Positions 2,835-50,674 of a stretch of 57,506 bases of DNA are shown piece by piece (position 1 is the stretch's first letter; each line of letters begins with the position of its first letter). A program made the position numbers and the translations under genes. The stretch is from an uncultured Clostridia bacterium (GTDB lineage: Bacteria > Bacillota > Clostridia > TANB77 > CAG-508), in NCBI GenBank assembly GCA_944393375.1, contig CALXZX010000008.1, positions 1-57,506 of the forward strand, written 5' to 3'. The notes below the pieces were generated by a model that did no database searches, was not told where the DNA came from, and saw nothing but the letters and a program-made list of their open reading frames with translations.

Positions 2835-4283
2835 TTGAGAGAGATGAAAAAACAAAAGAATAAAGGTATTACATTAATTGCATTAGTTATTACAATTATT
2901 ATATTATTAATTTTAGCAGGAATTACCATAAGTGCGATAACAGGGGATAATGGAATTATAGGCAATGCTGGACAAGCAAAAGAAGAAACAGAAATTGCTA
3001 ATGAAAAAGAAATCGTAGAAAAAGCAACTGTACAAGCAATGGGGAATAACAAATATGGAAATATTGTAGAAAATGAATTACAAGAGCAACTAGATAAGGA
3101 AACAGGAGAAGGAAAAACAGAAGCAACAGATATAGGGGGTGAATTTGAAGTTGTATTTAAAGATAATAATAGATATTATATCGTTGATAAAAATGGAAAT
3201 GTAACAGAATTTTGTGGGATTAGATTAAGTGATAAAGAATTAGCATTGTCTATAATAAATGGAGTTTTGCCAGAATATACCATAACTGCGACTAAATTTA
3301 ATATAACAGGAGATATTATTTGGGAAAGTTCTGATACAGAAGTTGCAACAACAGAAAATGGAAAAGTTGTAGCAGTTAATAAGGGAAAAACAATTATTAC
3401 AGCAAAATGTATAAGCGATGGAAAGGAATATACAGCAAATTGTGAGGTGGAAGTGGCAGAACATGTAGATAATAGCTATGTCCAATATGATGTGGAATAC
3501 AAGGATGTATATACAGGAACACAATATACCCAAAATACAGGATGGAGATTATTAAATCAGACAGATAATGGGGATGGAACATATGATATAGATATTATTA
3601 GTACAGGAATACCTGCAAAATTATATTATTATGGTTATGATAATTTTAAAGAAATTGAAAATACGACTCCTACAACAATAGGAAATTGGGCAGGAGATAG
3701 TGCACAAAGAAATGCTTTTGTAGAAAGATATTATGGGGTAGCAAGCTATAATAATGTTTATGCAGCAGCAGGATTATTATATAATTTTGAAAATATTGTA
3801 TTCAATGTGACAGGAACAACTAGTACATTAAATAAAACAGGTATAGAAAAAGAACATGGAGGATATATAGAAATTAAAAATGCTGGAGAAATAGTTGAAG
3901 CAACTGATAGTACTACAGGAGAAGATTTATTTAGAACCAATATAGCAAGTGGAACAGTAAAAGATATAAGGTCCATAAATCTTGAAGATATAATAGGAAA
4001 AAATCCAAGTTCAGATAAATTACAGATAAATACGGAAAAAAGCAAAGGTTTATTTATATTACAAAACTATACACCAGATCCGCATTCTAGTTCTAATTAT
4101 TGGTTAGCCTCTCCATTTTATAATGGATATGAACGTTATTTATATTATGTAGATGGTAGTGGCGGTAGTACTAGAGAAGATGGATATAATGCAGGACCAT
4201 TTGGAGTTCGTCCTATTATTTCAATATCTGGAGTAAAAATGATTCAAGAAGAAGGAAGTTATATATGGAAGATAATAAAATAG
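2835..4283 (+). CDS. Pilin-leader surface protein with Ig-like (BIG2) domain
   Basis: 482 aa. A TTG start at 2835 is 6-7 nt after AAAGGAGA; the ATG at 2844 is the alternative. The N-terminus (NKGITLIALVITI, then ILLILAGITI) resembles a type IV prepilin leader, cleavable after Gly, but has Ala where pilins have Glu5. A bacterial Ig-like group 2 domain follows at about residues 130-210 (IIWESSDTEVATTENGKVVA, then KGKTIITAKC). The C-terminal half has YWLASPFYNG and ends with PFGVRPIISISG, a layout seen in clostridial surface proteins (DUF6273-like; tentative). It is a leader paralogue of the DGR target at 42598. Its own C-terminus does not match the TR in this window. Confidence 0.75.
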   Translation: MREMKKQKNKGITLIALVITIIILLILAGITISAITGDNGIIGNAGQAKEETEIANEKEIVEKATVQAMGNNKYGNIVENELQEQLDKETGEGKTEATDIGGEFEVVFKDNNRYYIVDKNGNVTEFCGIRLSDKELALSIINGVLPEYTITATKFNITGDIIWESSDTEVATTENGKVVAVNKGKTIITAKCISDGKEYTANCEVEVAEHVDNSYVQYDVEYKDVYTGTQYTQNTGWRLLNQTDNGDGTYDIDIISTGIPAKLYYYGYDNFKEIENTTPTTIGNWAGDSAQRNAFVERYYGVASYNNVYAAAGLLYNFENIVFNVTGTTSTLNKTGIEKEHGGYIEIKNAGEIVEATDSTTGEDLFRTNIASGTVKDIRSINLEDIIGKNPSSDKLQINTEKSKGLFILQNYTPDPHSSSNYWLASPFYNGYERYLYYVDGSGGSTREDGYNAGPFGVRPIISISGVKMIQEEGSYIWKIIK

Positions 4284-41512: not shown

Positions 41513-41597
41513 GCTCGAAATAAAAATCGGGTGCTCGAAATAAAAATCGGGTGCTCGAAATAAAAATCGGGTGCTCGAAATAAAAATCGGGTGCTCG
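41511..41597. repeat. Tandem 20-bp repeat, 4.35 copies
   Basis: GTGCTCGAAATAAAAATCGG is repeated without change at 41511, 41531, 41551 and 41571, with a partial GTGCTCG at 41591, followed by TTTTTTT. There are no spacers between units, so this is not CRISPR. It lies between mfd and the MutS domain-I-like gene at the left edge of the DGR region. Confidence 0.9.
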
Positions 41598-41627
41598 TTT
41601 TTTTGCTTTTAAGAAAAGAGGTGAGAA

Positions 41628-42113
41628 ATGAAATTTTATGAATTTATTGAAAATTTACGAAAATTAAATCCAGATAAAATTATTATGATAAAAACAGGAG
41701 CATTTTTCAATAGTGTTGGCCGAGATGCCATAATATTAGAATATACATTAGGATTAAAAAGAACATGTTTTGCAAAAGGAGTGTGTAAAGTAGGTGTTCC
41801 AGTAGCACATTTTAAAGAAAATTTAGAAAAAATAAAAAACAGAGTAAAAGAGAAGAATTTGGGAATAATAGTTTATGATGAAGTTAAAGATGGAAGATAT
41901 AAATTTAAAGACAAAAGTTATGATGTCATACTGGAATTAGAAGGAAAGAGTATATCAGAAACAAGAAGAAATACAAATTGCAATGAATGTGAAAATAATG
42001 TATATGTAAAAGAAACAAATATGTATACAATCCGAAAGGAAGATTATGAAGAATTAGCAAAAAAATTTGAAAATTTTTTAGAAAGTATAAAACAAATTTT
42101 AAGAATAAAATAA
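41628..42113 (+). CDS. Stand-alone MutS domain I-like protein
   Basis: 161 aa. The first 85 residues follow the mismatch-recognition domain I of MutS: KFYEFIENLRKLNPDKIIMI, then KTGAFFNSVGRDAIILEYTL (in MutS, a G-x-F-Y-E/D-x-F...DA pattern), CKVGVPVAHFKENLEKI and LGIIVYDEV. The Phe-x-Glu mismatch wedge is degenerate (AFFNSVG). The connector, core, clamp and ATPase domains are absent. The C-terminal part has NCNECENNVYV with two Cys and a helical tail. The start follows GAGGTGAG. It lies upstream of a DGR; MutS-like accessory genes have been reported beside some DGRs, so it may act on VR/cDNA heteroduplexes (inference). Confidence 0.7.
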   Translation: MKFYEFIENLRKLNPDKIIMIKTGAFFNSVGRDAIILEYTLGLKRTCFAKGVCKVGVPVAHFKENLEKIKNRVKEKNLGIIVYDEVKDGRYKFKDKSYDVILELEGKSISETRRNTNCNECENNVYVKETNMYTIRKEDYEELAKKFENFLESIKQILRIK

Positions 42114-42154
42114 TTGAATAATAATTGAGAAATGGAGAATAGAAAAAAGAAGAT

Positions 42155-42397
42155 TTAGTCATCTTCTAAGTTATCAATATTAAAAATAGACGAATTAAAA
42201 AAATCTTGTAAAGTAATGTTAAGTCCTCTACATATTCTCATGATTGTTAAAATATTCAAATTTGCATTTTGTCTAGAATTTATATTAGCAAGAGTAGATT
42301 GTGTAATACCAGAAATTGTACAAAGTTTATTAATGGTTATATTTTTTTCATCACAAAGTTCATAAATTCTTTTTCTTACAGCCATACTTAAATACAT
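42155..42397 (-). CDS. Small XRE-family HTH regulator
   Basis: 80 aa. A Cro/C1-type helix-turn-helix covers almost the whole protein: RKRIYELCDEKNITINKLC, GITQSTLANINSRQNANLN, then IMRICRGLNITLQDFF. No effector domain. GGTGATT precedes the start. It is transcribed toward the MutS-like gene and away from the DGR target, sharing the 200-bp control region 42398-42597, so it is a good candidate to repress the target gene and itself. Related short regulators are common in this group of bacteria. Confidence 0.85.
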   Translation of the reverse strand: MYLSMAVRKRIYELCDEKNITINKLCTISGITQSTLANINSRQNANLNILTIMRICRGLNITLQDFFNSSIFNIDNLEDD

Positions 42398-42441
42398 AAA
42401 ATAATCACCAAAAAAAGTATAGCAAATAAAGAAGGAAAAGA

Positions 42442-42459
42442 TTAACTCAAAAGAGTTGA
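42442..42459. promoter_or_regulatory. Palindrome overlapping DGR promoter, possible XRE operator
   Basis: AACTC-AAAA-GAGTT (42444-42457), with near-symmetric flanks (TT / GA), covers the first bases of the TTGACA box at 42456. It lies between the divergent XRE and target genes. Binding by the XRE protein is inference. Confidence 0.45.
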
Positions 42460-42483
42460 CAAATAAAAAATAAATGATAAAAT
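42456..42483 (+). promoter_or_regulatory. Promoter P1 of DGR target gene
   Basis: TTGACA (42456-42461), 16-nt spacer, TAAAAT (42478-42483). The -35 box overlaps the palindrome at 42442-42459. Confidence 0.6.
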
Positions 42484-42499
42484 AAATTTAAAATTTTAC

Positions 42500-42528
42500 T
42501 TGAAAAGCATAATAGCTTATAGTAAAAT
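42500..42528 (+). promoter_or_regulatory. Promoter P2 of DGR target gene
   Basis: TTGAAA (42500-42505), 17-nt spacer, TAAAAT (42523-42528). It lies 70 nt upstream of the target start codon, in tandem with P1. Confidence 0.6.
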
Positions 42529-42597
42529 ATAAATATATGCTAGAAGTAAAAAATAATTAATCGCAAAAGAAAATAAACAAGGAAGGGAGAAAAGCAA

Positions 42598-44211
42598 ATG
42601 AAGAAAAAACAAACATTTGAGATGAAAAACATAATCCAAAAGAATAATGGTATTACTCTAATAGCATTAGTAATTACAATCATTGTTTTGCTAATATTAG
42701 CAGGCGTAACGATTGCAACATTAACAGGAGAAAATGGAATCTTAACAAGAGCAAGCGAAGCAGCCCAAAGGACAGAAGAAGCAAATGCAAGAGAACAAGT
42801 ACAATTAGCCGTAGCAGCAAGTATAGGTGAAGATGGAAAAATTAATTATGATAATTTAAATAATGAATTAGCAAAAATAGATGGATTAACATATCATGGT
42901 AGCTCAATATCAGATAGTAATAGAATAGAAAGTTTACCAGAAGATGTAGTGCTAGATGGATATACGATTACAATTAATGCAGATGGAAGTATCAACAGTA
43001 ATGGAGGAGGAATAACACCACCTTCAACAGCAGGAAAAACAGATGGAAGCTATGATGAAAATAAAAAAGTAAATACACCAAAACTAGGTTCTGATATGGA
43101 ATTAGTCGTATATGAAAATGGAGAATGGGTGACTGATGAAACAAATGCAGCATATAGTTATGTAGCTCAAACAGGAACAACTGAAGATGGAGGAACAAGT
43201 GAATGGGCAAATGCAAAAGTAACCATAGATGGAGTAGAGAGTTATTTTGTATGGATACCAAGATATGCCTATAAAATAGATACTATTAACCATGTAATAG
43301 ATGTGAAATTTATAAAAGGAACAGGAACAGAAGCAACAGATGGAACACCATGTAAATATGCAGATGATAGTAGTTTAAATACAAGTACAGATTATATCAT
43401 CCACCCAGCATTTACAACAAATGCAGATTTAGGAGGAGGATGGAGTACAGAACTACCAGGAATATGGATAGGAAAATATGAAAGTAGTTTAGTAAATAAA
43501 TCAGATAGTAGTTATATAACAACAAGTAGTAGCGATATAGGAAATATATTATTATCCAATAACACAGATAAAGCAATAGCAGTACAACCAAATATGAGTT
43601 CATGGAGATATTGTACAATAGGAAACATGTATACAAATGCACTAGCATATTCACCTAATTTAAATTCACATATGCTAAAAAATAGTGAATGGGGAGCAGT
43701 GGCATATCTAACCCATAGTCAATATGGAAGAAATGGAACAGAAATAGCAATCAATAATAGTAGTAATTATATAACAGGAACATCAGGAGGAACTGCAAAT
43801 GCAAGTTCAAGTGATGCAACATATGCATATAATGATACAACAAATGGAGTACTAGCAAGTAGTACAGGAAATGTATATGGAATCTATGATTTATCAGGAG
43901 GAGCAAGGGAATATGTAGCTGCATATTATGGTGAAAGTTCATATCTAGCAAATGGAAGTTCATTTGCAAATGAAACAAGCGACAGAAAATATTCAACAGT
44001 ATATGGAGATTCTGGAATTACAGGAGATGCAACAACAGAAACAAGTGGATGGAATGACGATTACGCCGCCTTTGTGGATTCTGACTTCCCTTTCTTCGGG
44101 CGTGGAGGTGTCTATAGCGATGGGTCTAGCGCTGGGGTATTCTTCTTCATCGGCTACAATGGGAGCAGTTACAGCAACTACAGTTTCCGTGTAAGTCTCG
44201 CGATACAGTAA
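42598..44211 (+). CDS. DGR target: pilin-leader protein with lectin-like variable domain
   Basis: 537 aa, GGAAGGGAG before the ATG. A type IV prepilin-like leader ends at G18 (KNNGITLIALVITI, then VLLILAGVTI), with Ala where pilins have Glu5, so the protein should be exported and membrane-held. Residues about 200-537 resemble the formylglycine-generating-enzyme/C-type-lectin fold of known DGR targets: SYFVWIPRYAYKI, LKNSEWGAVAYLTHSQYG, GNVYGIYDLSGGAREYV. The last 52 codons are the variable repeat, ending FRVSLAIQ. VR codons have far higher G+C than the rest. Its surface position suggests a binding protein with tunable specificity. Confidence 0.92.
   Translation: MKKKQTFEMKNIIQKNNGITLIALVITIIVLLILAGVTIATLTGENGILTRASEAAQRTEEANAREQVQLAVAASIGEDGKINYDNLNNELAKIDGLTYHGSSISDSNRIESLPEDVVLDGYTITINADGSINSNGGGITPPSTAGKTDGSYDENKKVNTPKLGSDMELVVYENGEWVTDETNAAYSYVAQTGTTEDGGTSEWANAKVTIDGVESYFVWIPRYAYKIDTINHVIDVKFIKGTGTEATDGTPCKYADDSSLNTSTDYIIHPAFTTNADLGGGWSTELPGIWIGKYESSLVNKSDSSYITTSSSDIGNILLSNNTDKAIAVQPNMSSWRYCTIGNMYTNALAYSPNLNSHMLKNSEWGAVAYLTHSQYGRNGTEIAINNSSNYITGTSGGTANASSSDATYAYNDTTNGVLASSTGNVYGIYDLSGGAREYVAAYYGESSYLANGSSFANETSDRKYSTVYGDSGITGDATTETSGWNDDYAAFVDSDFPFFGRGGVYSDGSSAGVFFFIGYNGSSYSNYSFRVSLAIQ
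44056..44205 (+). repeat. DGR variable repeat (VR)
   Basis: 150 bp matching the TR at 44340-44489 without gaps. All 26 mismatches are at TR adenines: 15 A-to-G, 10 A-to-T, 1 A-to-C. They change 17 amino acids and are silent at 2 codons. The 3' end from 44180 to 44201 is 22 bp identical and contains the likely IMH site (TTTCCGTGTAAGTCTCGC). Homology stops at 44205, one codon before the stop. Confidence 0.97.
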
Positions 44212-44220
44212 TGTGAAATC

Positions 44221-44236
44221 TGTTATCTGAGTAACA
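44221..44236 (+). other. Small hairpin after VR
   Basis: TGTTA (44221-44225) and TAACA (44232-44236) with a 6-nt loop, about 19 bp after the IMH and just beyond the target stop codon. In the Bordetella phage DGR a hairpin/cruciform just downstream of the IMH aids homing. This one is shorter, so the parallel is tentative. Confidence 0.45.
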
Positions 44237-44287
44237 TGAAATACAACCCTACACGTAATAAAACAAGAAGATATTAAATCATAAGTT

Positions 44288-44320
44288 CTTTTCGTTCGAG
44301 CGAAAGCTTAGAGCGAAAAG
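44288..44320 (+). other. Hairpin upstream of TR
   Basis: CTTTTCGTTC (44288-44297) pairs with GAGCGAAAAG (44311-44320) over 10 bp including one G-U, with a 13-nt loop. An alternative fold (TTCGT / GCGAA within 44291-44304) competes. It lies 20 nt before the TR and would be in the 5' part of the TR RNA. Confidence 0.5.
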
Positions 44321-44339
44321 CATAGGGATATACCTGTCA

Positions 44340-44489
44340 AACGATAACGCCAACTTTGTGAATTCTAACAACCCTTTCTTCAAACGTGGAGGTAACTATA
44401 ACAATGGGTCTAACGCTGGAGTATTCAACTTCAACAACAACAATGGGAGCAGTAACAGCAACAACAGTTTCCGTGTAAGTCTCGCAATA
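44340..44489 (+). repeat. DGR template repeat (TR)
   Basis: The unmutated, non-coding donor copy. Read in the VR frame it has 18 AAY codons and one AAA, the design that lets adenine mutation reach many amino acids without making stop codons. It is intergenic between the target and the avd gene. The IMH* end has A at 44486 where the VR has G. An open frame across it (44358-44582) is only a by-product. Confidence 0.97.
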
Positions 44490-44547
44490 TGGCATAACAT
44501 TATCAGATATATTTGTTCAAGGATAAATATAGAGCATACATGCCATA
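44488..44547 (+). ncRNA. Stem bracketing the TR 3' spacer of the DGR RNA
   Basis: TATGGCAT (44488-44495) is complementary to ATGCCATA (44540-44547), enclosing 44 nt. The first arm starts exactly where TR/VR homology ends. In the Bordetella phage DGR the spacer after the TR folds and primes cDNA synthesis; this stem is in the corresponding place. The role is inferred. Confidence 0.5.
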
Positions 44548-44594
44548 CAAGGTATATTCCTTCCAAAAGTAAATATTGGTAAAAATATAAATTT

Positions 44595-44655
44595 AAAAGT
44601 ATATTCTAGTATTTCAGCAATGATTAAGAACGAATATACTTTTTCTTTTTTCTAT
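44595..44655 (+). terminator. Terminator of the TR RNA
   Basis: AAAAGTATATTC (44595-44606) pairs perfectly with GAATATACTTTT (44632-44643) over 12 bp, followed by TTCTTTTTTC. It would end a DGR RNA about 150-165 nt after the TR, ahead of avd, leaving avd and RT to partial read-through or their own promoter. Confidence 0.65.
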
Positions 44656-44671
44656 TCTGGAAAGGAAAATA

Positions 44672-45040
44672 ATGTATAAACCAAAACAAACAGAAAGTAA
44701 ATTGTTAATCTATCAAAAGTATATAGATTTAATAGAATATGGATATAGGTTATTAATTAAATATCCAAAATATGAAAAATATGCATTGGTAAGCGAAATA
44801 AGAAGAAATATGTATCAATCGTTAAAATATATACTTTATGCCAATAAAATAGCAAATAAATATAATAGGTTGGATATACTAAACAGATTAGATGCTGAAA
44901 TTGCTACGCAAAGTTTTTTTGTCAGATTTTCATATAAAAATAAATATATAAATACAAGTAATTACTACGAATGGTCAAAAAGACTGGAAGAAATAGGAAA
45001 AATACTAGGAGGCTGGATAAAATCATGCCTAAGAGAATAA
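44672..45040 (+). CDS. avd: DGR accessory variability determinant (Avd-type)
   Basis: 122 aa, GGAAAGGAAA before the ATG. Avd proteins form pentamers of four-helix bundles that bind the RT and nucleic acid and are needed for mutagenic homing. The sequence is basic (many Lys/Arg) and reads as four helices: YQKYIDLIEYGYRLLIKYPK, SEIRRNMYQSLKYILYANKI, LDILNRLDAEIATQSFFVR, and YYEWSKRLEEIGKILGGWI. The last helix motif (SxxLEEIGxxLGGWI) is characteristic of the four-helix-bundle/Avd family. It overlaps the RT gene by 16 bp, indicating translational coupling. Confidence 0.88.
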   Translation: MYKPKQTESKLLIYQKYIDLIEYGYRLLIKYPKYEKYALVSEIRRNMYQSLKYILYANKIANKYNRLDILNRLDAEIATQSFFVRFSYKNKYINTSNYYEWSKRLEEIGKILGGWIKSCLRE

Positions 45041-46047
45041 ATCATATATTTAAGGAAAATATCAGTTTTGCCAAGCTATTAGAAGCACACAATAAATGTA
45101 AGAAAAACAAAAGATTCAAAAAACAAGTAATAGAATTTGAAATGAAATTAGAAAGTAATTTAATACAAATAGGAAAGGAATTGTTAAATGATACATATAC
45201 TTTTTCAGAATATTTTGAATTTACAATATATGAACCAAAAGAAAGAAAAATAAAGACATTAAATTATAGAGATAGAGTTGTACAAACATGGTATGTAGAA
45301 AATTTTTTAAAACCACACTTTAGACCAAATTTTATAAATGATAGTTATGCTTGTATAGAAGGAAAAGGAACTCATAAAGCGGTAGAGCAAACACAAATAT
45401 ACTTGCAAAAAGCAGATAGAACATATAAAGAAGTATGGGTATTAAAATGTGATATAAAAAAATTTTTTTTTAATATAGATAGAGAAATATTGTTTAATCT
45501 ACTGAAAAGAAAAATAAAAGATAGATATTTTTTAGAATTTAGTAAAAAAATTATATTTTATGATGAAGAAAAAGTAGGAATACCAATTGGAAATTATACA
45601 TCACAATATTATGCAAATATATACATGACAAAACTAGATAAGTATATAAAGGAAAATCTAAAAACTTGCTACTATACAAGATATATGGATGATTTTGTTT
45701 TAATATTAGAAAGCAAAGAAAAAGCAAAAGAAATGTTAGAAAAAATAAGAGATTTTTTGAGTGAAAACTTAAAATTAGAATTAAATTCAAAAACAGCATA
45801 TTTCAAACAAAATCAAGGCATAAATTATTGTGGTTTTAGAATATGGAAAACACATAGGCTATTAAGAGAACAAAGTAAAAAGAAAATGAAAAGAAAATTA
45901 AAAAATTTTGAAAAGTTATATAAAAAGGGAAAAATAGAATTACCATATATAACAGCTTGTATAAATTCATGGAAAGGCCATGCAAAACATGCCAATAGTT
46001 TTCGTTTGGTAAATAAATTGCTAGATGAATTTGTATTAAAGAAGTAG
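45025..46047 (+). CDS. DGR reverse transcriptase
   Basis: 340 aa. The ATG at 45025 follows AGGAGG (45007-45012) inside the end of avd; an in-frame ATG at 44971 has no such site. Catalytic Asp143 is in LKCDIKKFFFNID and the YMDD box is at residues 220-223. The DGR-specific motif 4, IGNYTSQ (188-194), replaces the QGxxxSP of retron and group II intron RTs. YRDRVVQTWYVENFL and NYCGFRIWKTHRLL fit DGR enzymes. No maturase, RNase H or integrase domain. Makes adenine-mutated cDNA from the TR RNA together with Avd. Confidence 0.95.
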   Translation: MPKRINHIFKENISFAKLLEAHNKCKKNKRFKKQVIEFEMKLESNLIQIGKELLNDTYTFSEYFEFTIYEPKERKIKTLNYRDRVVQTWYVENFLKPHFRPNFINDSYACIEGKGTHKAVEQTQIYLQKADRTYKEVWVLKCDIKKFFFNIDREILFNLLKRKIKDRYFLEFSKKIIFYDEEKVGIPIGNYTSQYYANIYMTKLDKYIKENLKTCYYTRYMDDFVLILESKEKAKEMLEKIRDFLSENLKLELNSKTAYFKQNQGINYCGFRIWKTHRLLREQSKKKMKRKLKNFEKLYKKGKIELPYITACINSWKGHAKHANSFRLVNKLLDEFVLKK

Positions 46048-46084
46048 GAAACATATTGCTAAAATCGAAAAAAAGTTATAAAAT

Positions 46085-49738: not shown

Positions 49739-50674
49739 ATGGTAGAAGATAGTGAAATCAAGGCGCAAGTATCTCCATTCGCTATAAGAGAAGGTGAAAT
49801 TAAAACCTTTGATGGAAAAGATGGGTATGTGTCAATGAATCAAATCGTACATAAGATTAATATTGGACATATTAATGAAATCCATTTTGCAATTTTAGAC
49901 TTAGTAAATGAATTTGAATTTATTACATCAAGACAGTTATATCAAATGCTAGAGATCAAAGGAATTGATCCTAAGTCACAAGATAAATTAAATAACAAAT
50001 TAGATCAATTAGTAAAATCTAAAATTTTAACAAGATATTATTTTACTTCTGATGAGGGTAAAGGTATTTATAGAATTTATTGTTTAGAGAAGATGGGAAA
50101 ATATTTATTAAATTCTAAAGAAATTGATTGTAAATGGCAACCATCTGATAATACAAAACCAGTACCAATGATTAAAAAGAGATTGGCTGGAAATCAAACA
50201 TTAATTGCTTATTTAAGAAAAGTAAAAGCATTTGACAGTTATATTGTAAAACCAGCAATTACTGCAAAAGTATCAGGAAAGTTATTTAAAGCAAGTGGTG
50301 GAGCAGTTAAACTTACGAAAAATGGAAAATCAATTCAATTTGTTTTTGAAGTTATTAGGAGAGAACCTGACTGGGAGAAAAAATTAGTTGAAAGAATGAG
50401 ATTATATAAAGAATTCTATGAAAACTATGTTCCAGGTGATTCAGGATTTGCAGCAATGCCACAATTGATATTAATCTGCGAAGATGAAAAACATATGGCA
50501 GAAACTTTTAAAGAAATTGTAAAAAATAAATTAGAGATTCCACAAATCAAATTATATTTTACAACTGATTTAAGACAGAATAAAGAAACACTAGAAGATA
50601 CATTAGTAGATTTTAAATTAGTAGATGGAAAATATAAAATGGAAAATGTAGAATTAAAATTATTAGGAATGTAA
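49739..50674 (+). CDS. Winged-helix protein, replication-relaxation-like
   Basis: 311 aa. An N-terminal winged helix (residues about 40-125: FITSRQLYQMLEIKGID, LDQLVKSKILTRYYF, IYCLEKMGKYLL) is followed by a domain with FVFEVIRREPDWEKKLVERM and an alternating strand/helix pattern (LILICEDEKHMAETFKEIV). The layout recalls replication-relaxation proteins of plasmids and integrative elements, whose second domain is a nuclease-like fold; I am not certain. GGGGGAA precedes the ATG. No other plasmid gene is nearby. A palindromic element directly follows the stop codon. Confidence 0.55.
   Translation: MVEDSEIKAQVSPFAIREGEIKTFDGKDGYVSMNQIVHKINIGHINEIHFAILDLVNEFEFITSRQLYQMLEIKGIDPKSQDKLNNKLDQLVKSKILTRYYFTSDEGKGIYRIYCLEKMGKYLLNSKEIDCKWQPSDNTKPVPMIKKRLAGNQTLIAYLRKVKAFDSYIVKPAITAKVSGKLFKASGGAVKLTKNGKSIQFVFEVIRREPDWEKKLVERMRLYKEFYENYVPGDSGFAAMPQLILICEDEKHMAETFKEIVKNKLEIPQIKLYFTTDLRQNKETLEDTLVDFKLVDGKYKMENVELKLLGM

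Follow-up and report, generated by a model that had tools for sequence, protein, structure and literature searches.

The 57,506-nt stretch analysed here (the window), contig CALXZX010000008.1 of assembly GCA_944393375.1 from an uncultured Clostridia bacterium (TANB77; CAG-508), carries a diversity-generating retroelement (DGR). We are strongly confident that this is an intact, recently active, chromosomal DGR that diversifies the lectin domain of a pilin-like surface protein in an uncultured, gut-type Clostridia bacterium. The assignment as a DGR is secure, the kind of element is already known, and the evidence is unusually clear. The adenine-specific divergence of its repeats, the turnover of its variable repeat (VR) between two near-identical contigs, its anatomy, the conservation of an RNA beside its template repeat (TR) and the presence of pilus machinery in the genome are all direct observations. 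An earlier, sequence-only reading of the window had proposed a DGR, and the reverse transcriptase (RT), the accessory protein Avd, the TR/VR pair with its adenine specificity, the target family and the RNA 3' of the TR uphold that proposal. All features of this element lie on the forward strand.

Adenine-specific divergence of the two repeats

The VR (44056-44205) and the TR (44340-44489) align without gaps over 150 bp and differ at 26 positions, every one of them an adenine in the TR (15 to G, 10 to T and 1 to C); our recomputation gave exactly the count first reported. The TR holds 53 adenines in its 150 bases, and the hypergeometric chance that 26 of 26 mismatches fall on them is 1.0e-14. 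The VR encodes residues 487 to about 536 of the 537-aa target protein, and the residue is changed in 17 of the 49 whole VR codons, again in agreement with the first count of 17. Eighteen of the 49 TR codons are AAY, and a stop can be reached from one codon only (AAA, codon 501). The pair has 124 identities in 150 bp (83%). When the window is aligned with itself without gaps at the other offsets from 151 to 3000 bp, no 150-bp segment exceeds 110. Two repeats of such similarity, offset by 284 bp, could in principle be an ordinary duplication that has since drifted or undergone gene conversion. The confinement of all 26 differences to adenines of one repeat already contradicts that explanation, relatives show the same pattern, and an RT, an Avd and the RT-14 RNA adjoin the repeats; we give it practically no credence.

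The longest mismatch-free run, 44180-44201, is the 22-bp end, the same in VR and TR, that had been described as an intact initiation of mutagenic homing (IMH) sequence, and that description holds. The last mismatch (44202, A to G) falls where the TR has the first base of the sequence AATATGG. In the VRs of all ten close loci counted (defined below), one or both of the two adjacent A columns of this sequence are G, and never T or C: the first column in the window and in contig L066, both in L063, and the second in the other seven. These loci are related, so they are not ten independent observations. Over the 18 bases preceding the two columns no A is changed in any of the ten, and L061 and L079 have one T-to-C difference each. 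We think it probable that 44202 marks a fixed difference between IMH and IMH*, passed on together with the end of the VR. That all the changes lie at adenines stands; the number of mutagenic ones would be 25, not 26.

Directly 3' of the VR, a conserved stretch runs across the stop codon (44207-44229, 23/23 the same in L063; 44208-44230, 23/23 identical in L089). Inverted repeats were seen just 3' of the VR in several Bacilli loci, most clearly in L081, L094 and L099. A candidate pairing between an ATCTG downstream of the window VR and a CAGAT motif in the RT-14 RNA looked weak and was abandoned without a formal test.

For comparison we surveyed 80 DGR loci, 50 of them from Bacillota and 30 from elsewhere, all of them consensus assemblies. 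Fourteen are close to the element studied here: the window, L059-L066, L079, L089, L093, L104 and L106. VR/TR differences were counted in ten of these; L064 and L089 were excluded for their short gapless stretches, L104 begins within the RT, and L106 yielded no VR/TR pair. Across the ten, 242 of 253 differences lie at TR adenines (128 to G, 90 to T, 24 to C). Pairs in relatives were listed only if they had at least 6 mismatches with at least 75% at A of one copy, and because this filter favours adenine-specific pairs, the share is partly selected for and is a matter of consistency, not independent proof. The window pair and the comparison with L066 are independent of the filter.

The per-site substitution profile, taken over 12 close loci with unchanged sites counted, shows that the first A of AAC most often turns to T (45/145, 31%); A misincorporation at this position has likewise been reported for the DGR of Bordetella phage BPP-1 (PMC12875486). 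At the second A of AAC, a change to C is rare (6/145, 4%, and 4/216, 2%, in 35 other loci), and for BPP-1 the same source describes raised G misincorporation there. This suggests an error profile different from that of BPP-1, with the reservation that natural VRs have been filtered by selection.

Turnover of the variable repeat in a near-identical contig

Contig L066, a 4.5-kb contig from a metagenome-assembled genome titled uncultured Clostridia bacterium, aligns with 41551-46064 of the window. The two differ at 3 of 1047 positions upstream of the target gene and at 1 of 1458 (0.07%) in its constant part, and there are no differences in the gap between VR and TR (134 positions), in the spacer (182) or in avd before its overlap with the RT gene (299). 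The TRs differ at 2 of 150 positions. The VRs, in contrast, differ at 32 of 150 (21.3%). At 30 of these 32 sites the window TR has an A, at another (44108) the L066 TR has one, and the last (44166) is a C, so that 31 of the 32 sit where either TR has an A. Such a contrast is what recent mutagenic retrohoming, and not drift, would predict. The sequence-only reading had proposed a count of mismatches by TR base in a related strain, with differences spread evenly over the TR bases as the outcome that would tell against an active DGR; L066, with changes on TR adenines and near-identical flanks, gives the opposite. An assembly that collapsed VR and TR does not explain the result, because the L066 VR is unlike both its own TR and the window VR.

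L066 also bears on whether the element might be a relic that was formerly active and is now silent, with old VR differences. Ongoing events would be invisible in assembly data, and decay does occur in the clade: in L059, 5 of 30 mismatches are at bases other than A, the highest share among the ten close loci, and the RT match of L106 has a gap. That the window and L066 are almost identical around VRs that differ so widely is hard to reconcile with old differences, the reading frames of the target, avd and RT are all open, and none of the 26 VR/TR differences lies at a non-A base. We consider a relic very unlikely; recent activity of the DGR is supported by this independent contig.

Signs of decay were also noted elsewhere in the clade. 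L106 (5200-7000) combines the internal gap in its RT match with a short TR and no MSL match (MSL is a MutS-domain-I accessory described below), and looks like a decaying DGR. In L068 (7306-7780) a long pilin-like open reading frame stops inside the VR, and this target looks frame-shifted or truncated.

A structured RNA 3' of the template repeat

The TR is preceded by a leader (44260-44336) and followed by a match to the Rfam family RT-14 (RF02921) at 44487-44644 (49.9 bits; gathering score 48.1). The RNA overlaps the end of the TR by 3-5 nt in L059, L066 and L037 and starts 13 nt past it in L068, where the RT lies on the opposite strand and RT-14 remains on the strand of the TR. L060 and L061 align well over the region and stay under the gathering score. 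Part of the leader (44260-44332) recurs at 88% identity downstream of the RT of L059 (7622-7694 of that locus), with RT-14-like sequence after it and no TR behind; this looks like a decayed template RNA.

Pair counts support three helices, 44488-44495/44540-44547, 44508-44515/44524-44531 and 44595-44606/44632-44643. In an alignment of nine relatives, which leaves out the near-identical L066, 99.2% of helix cells are paired, against 94.2% in shuffles, none of 500 being as high. Cells with a double change number 14 against 4.0 in shuffles (0/500), and helix pairs with a double change 6 against 2.7 (6/500 as many); the 15 extra pair types are not exceptional (197/500 shuffles). The helices were read off the window sequence, and this biases the counts in their favour relative to the slid controls. 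Covariation in the first helix is limited to one of its eight pairs. The RNA fold of the window RT-14 has a z of -2.66. RNAalifold, run on a second alignment (A1), recovered the third helix alone, a result that we ascribe to misalignment between clades. A possible pseudoknot between an AAGG loop and a downstream CCTT was rejected: the bases concerned show no covariation among the clade members, and the loop reads ACGG in some other loci.

The spacer on the 3' side of the BPP-1 TR is structured, recruits the bRT-Avd complex and primes cDNA synthesis (PMC12875486). Because RT-14 is placed directly 3' of the TR, we propose by analogy that it may be the counterpart of this spacer, recruiting RT-Avd and priming the cDNA. 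Full-text searches of one open-licence library found no link between RT-14 and DGRs, the paper that came up being on group II introns; we do not claim novelty for the link.

Reverse transcriptase and Avd

The avd gene (44672-45040, 122 aa) matches PF22296 with 82.6 bits (cut-off 40) and NF033474 with 90.2 bits (cut-off 80), and further matches are to the PHROG 'Avd protein of DGR' (E 1.1e-32) and PDB 4dwl (E 0.002). The RT (44971-46047; PF00078, RVT_1) has 8ub7_A as its best solved relative (E 4.9e-54), a structure whose chain B is named Avd, and the next is a group II intron RT (4.6e-17). Curated NCBIfam RT models all scored below cut-off for this protein (best 128 bits against 300). It contains YMDD and IGNYTSQ, which we take to mark a DGR-class RT. 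Its open reading frame begins at 44971, and the start is more probably at 45025, because an AGGAGG stands upstream of the ATG there and the 8ub7_A match begins at RT residue 20.

The target protein

The target gene (42598-44211) has the VR at its 3' end. In the encoded protein, the C-terminal region (43159-44208) contains the VR within a predicted FGE-type C-type-lectin domain: a profile (A4) of 19 C-terminal sequences, built without L071 and L072, which were removed by hand, matches 5vf4 with E 5.1e-6. This structure is TaqVP, an FGE-subtype C-type-lectin DGR protein (PMC6328139). PF03781 matches the target with E 3.4e-4 and 20.8 bits, under its cut-off of 23.3, and phmmer with 43159-44208 alone found no PDB match up to E 1. 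The predicted lectin fold is thus based on a sequence profile.

At the other end is a pilin-like segment (42649-42777, GITLIALVITIIVLLILAG...), corresponding to residues 18-60, of which 34/43 are identical to each of two short pilins encoded in a type IV pilus locus of the same genome. That locus, on another contig, also encodes two T2SSE-family (PilB/PilT-type) ATPases and a prepilin peptidase, all over their family cut-offs; its PilC-like protein and others were named by eye. Among the 51 surveyed loci with a VR, 27 have complete, open targets of at least 400 aa (L096 and L098 being near-duplicates), and 25 of these 27 have a prepilin-like start, 23 by pattern and L099 and L100 by eye; the targets of L081 and L105 lack one. 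The Bacilli targets of L092, L094, L096 and L098-L100 have FTLIEL or GFTLAEL prepilin starts. Pilins as DGR targets are not new, putative pilin structures being mentioned in PMC6642488.

Searching the 1.54-Mb genome with the target gave 40 matches: the target itself, the TR and 38 further ones. The 38, spread over many contigs, cover nearly always the pilin-like N-terminus only, with varying C-terminal parts; one of them, at 2835-4283 of the window, also has a weak Big_2 match under cut-off.

Display at a type IV pilus seems likely from these similarities. A competing possibility, which concerns the display step and not the DGR itself, is that the pilin-like segment merely anchors the protein in the membrane and the variable domain works at the cell surface, outside any pilus. 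Classical pilins have Glu at position 5 of the mature segment. The target has Ala there, falls under the N_methyl cut-off and, at 537 aa, is large for a pilin, and the N-terminus-only matches across the genome also favour an anchor. Against this, both pilus-locus pilins share the Ala and pass the same cut-off (22.3 and 23.0 bits), the 34/43 identity and the ATPases and prepilin peptidase point to a pilus, and so do the six Bacilli targets (two of them the near-duplicates) with prepilin starts. We give the anchor a substantial chance, somewhat short of even.

A MutS-like accessory

Upstream of the target gene, 41628-42113 encodes a 161-aa MSL that consists of MutS domain I only (PF01624, 25.4 bits, cut-off 20.6) and that matched no NCBIfam or PHROGs family. 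The cassette as first described comprised TR/VR, RT and Avd, all of which are present; this MutS-like gene and the RNA element have to be added to it. MSL with PF01624, like HRDC, has already been named as a DGR accessory (PMC10053308), and the association is therefore known.

Relatives of MSL were found by phmmer (E 1e-3) in 44 of the 50 Bacillota loci and in none of the 30 others; of the six Bacillota misses, four extend for under 2.4 kb on the upstream side of the RT and end before the gene would be reached. L059 and L106 had no match within 13 kb. In 55 related genomes, a profile (A5) built without L079 located 51 short-frame MutS-I sites at E <=1e-15. An RT match lies no more than 5 kb from 42 of these, and from 43 of 62 when matches to E 0.001 are taken; the counts use all 81 RT rows and every short-frame MutS-I row. 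An RT match is present in each of the 25 genomes with sites at E <=1e-15, the overall figure being 35 of 55; when weak matches are included, 27 of 28 genomes have one, the exception being G043. Nine of the 51 sites are away from any RT match, some of which may be explained by contig breaks. In L059, without an MSL match, the non-A share is 5/30; seven close loci that have MSL together give 5/180 (Fisher p 0.006). This is a post hoc hint from one locus, and later change of the TR seems to account for part of it.

The Phe-X-Glu motif of mismatch-recognising MutS is incomplete in these proteins, with Phe in 47/47 and Glu in 0/47. In MutS, Phe36 stacks on the mismatch and Glu38 hydrogen-bonds it, a Glu38-to-Gln change abolishes discrimination, and Glu38 takes part in ATPase signalling (PMC3848065). 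We tentatively suggest, as an idea that we think rather unlikely, that MSL is a repair decoy: having kept the Phe wedge and lost the Glu for discrimination and signalling, it would occupy the VR/cDNA heteroduplex and block its rejection by host mismatch repair, and with RT-14 as a TR-bound loading RNA, these Bacillota DGRs would be self-contained mutators that disarm repair locally. If true, MSL would suit an element that introduces many mismatches in one step. On the other side, without the Glu MSL may bind any duplex (PMC3848065), or its role may be limited to bending DNA or to binding Avd-RT. When the BPP-1 DGR was reconstituted, removing mutS made no difference with a reporter for an 18-nt insertion, a substrate on which, per the authors, MutS does not act (PMC12875486), so that substitutions may behave differently.

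A second DGR and the genomic setting

The same genome has a second DGR, on contig C9 (22558-25431; 4470-8477 of locus L004), with an inverted RT. A 443-aa target with a pilin-like N-terminus, an MSL, an Avd and the TR follow one another, and the RT and a second MSL are on the opposite strand. Its Avd is over the Pfam cut-off (41.6 bits, cut-off 40) and under that of NCBIfam (41.2, cut-off 80). VR and TR have 15 differences, all at TR adenines, in two gapless stretches of 105 and 57 bp, with an additional 3-nt gap at an AACAAT site. Elsewhere in the genome no convincing further VR was found for TR1 or TR2, the best matches being at most 20 bp and 39 bp, respectively.

The DGR of the window is chromosomal, flanked by mfd and a DUF362 gene. 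A prophage origin was rejected, as none of ten flanking genes encodes a phage structural protein. Searching the phage collection with MSL gave nothing at E 1e-5, and relatives of the RT at <60% identity occur in 163 phage records. A weak Replic_Relax domain is present in one of the flanking genes (49739-50674).

Results that weigh against this account

Several results count against our interpretation. The evidence consists of consensus sequence assemblies, and VR turnover is seen in one 4.5-kb contig of a low-coverage assembly. That contig may be misbinned, because the collection has one genome per species, or may come from a close species, and we used it solely as an independent allele. Its RT differs from that of the window at 26 of 1076 sites and by one gap; the differences are confined to two patches (45316-45405 and 45897-46008), which suggests recombination or assembly mixing. 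RT-14 reaches the gathering score in just 4 of the 27 other loci scanned (L059, L066, L037 and L068) and does not reach it in the second DGR. No stable stem-loop was found 3' of the VR (DNA fold z 0.20; 102/200 shuffles equally good); we do not treat this feature as defining, because in BPP-1 the stem-loop 3' of the IMH raises efficiency and is not strictly required (PMC12875486). For the target, N_methyl scores 13.4 bits against a cut-off of 21.2, AlphaFold models have a pLDDT of 42 for the full protein and 58 for the C-terminal region, and Foldseek with these models found no PDB match at E <=0.001.

Proposed mechanism and implications

We infer transcription, priming by RT-14, pilus display, ligand binding and any role of MSL from the features described above. 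The TR would be transcribed together with the structured RT-14 RNA on its 3' side, and RT and Avd would copy the TR RNA into cDNA, erring at template adenines. This cDNA would take the place of the target gene's 3' end as far as the IMH, and residues of the FGE-type C-type-lectin domain would be altered. The pilin-like N-terminus would probably be cut by the prepilin peptidase of the genome and the protein exposed at the cell surface, perhaps on a type IV pilus, and its binding specificity would thereby be diversified.

Together, the window and L066 allow the activity of a DGR in an uncultured, gut-type lineage to be studied as a natural experiment. Across many Bacillota loci, the survey connects diversification by DGRs with pilin-like surface proteins, and it links Rfam RT-14 to the DGR template RNA. 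It also makes the role of MSL a testable question: does it shield mismatched cDNA from mismatch repair?

Comparison with known systems

The target of the Bordetella phage BPP-1 DGR is a C-type lectin, as is predicted here. Both systems have an RT, Avd, a TR/VR pair, adenine-specific changes and an IMH, and in BPP-1 (avd-TR-spacer-brt) there is likewise a structured RNA 3' of the TR (PMC12875486). They differ in that avd here lies 3' of the TR and its RNA, not 5', and in that an MSL gene is present. The element of the window is also chromosomal, between mfd and the DUF362 gene, and has no clear stem-loop 3' of the VR, and its rare A-to-C change at the second A of AAC (4%) differs from the raised G misincorporation of BPP-1 (PMC12875486).

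With the HRDC/MSL accessories of PMC10053308, it shares a MutS domain I (PF01624) protein encoded with the DGR; here the gene is upstream of the target gene, not beside the RT, and the excerpt of that paper does not mention loss of the FXE Glu for MSL. The second DGR resembles the inverted DGRs of group 4 (PMC3521204) in having target, Avd and TR on one strand and the RT on the other, and is unlike them in its pilin-like target, its two MSL genes and a VR that ends about 25 codons before the stop. Finally, the target of the window shares with Thermus aquaticus TaqVP (5VF4) an FGE-subtype C-type-lectin domain with a C-terminal VR; TaqVP is prophage-borne and single-domain (PMC6328139), whereas the predicted lectin domain here is fused to a pilin-like N-terminus.

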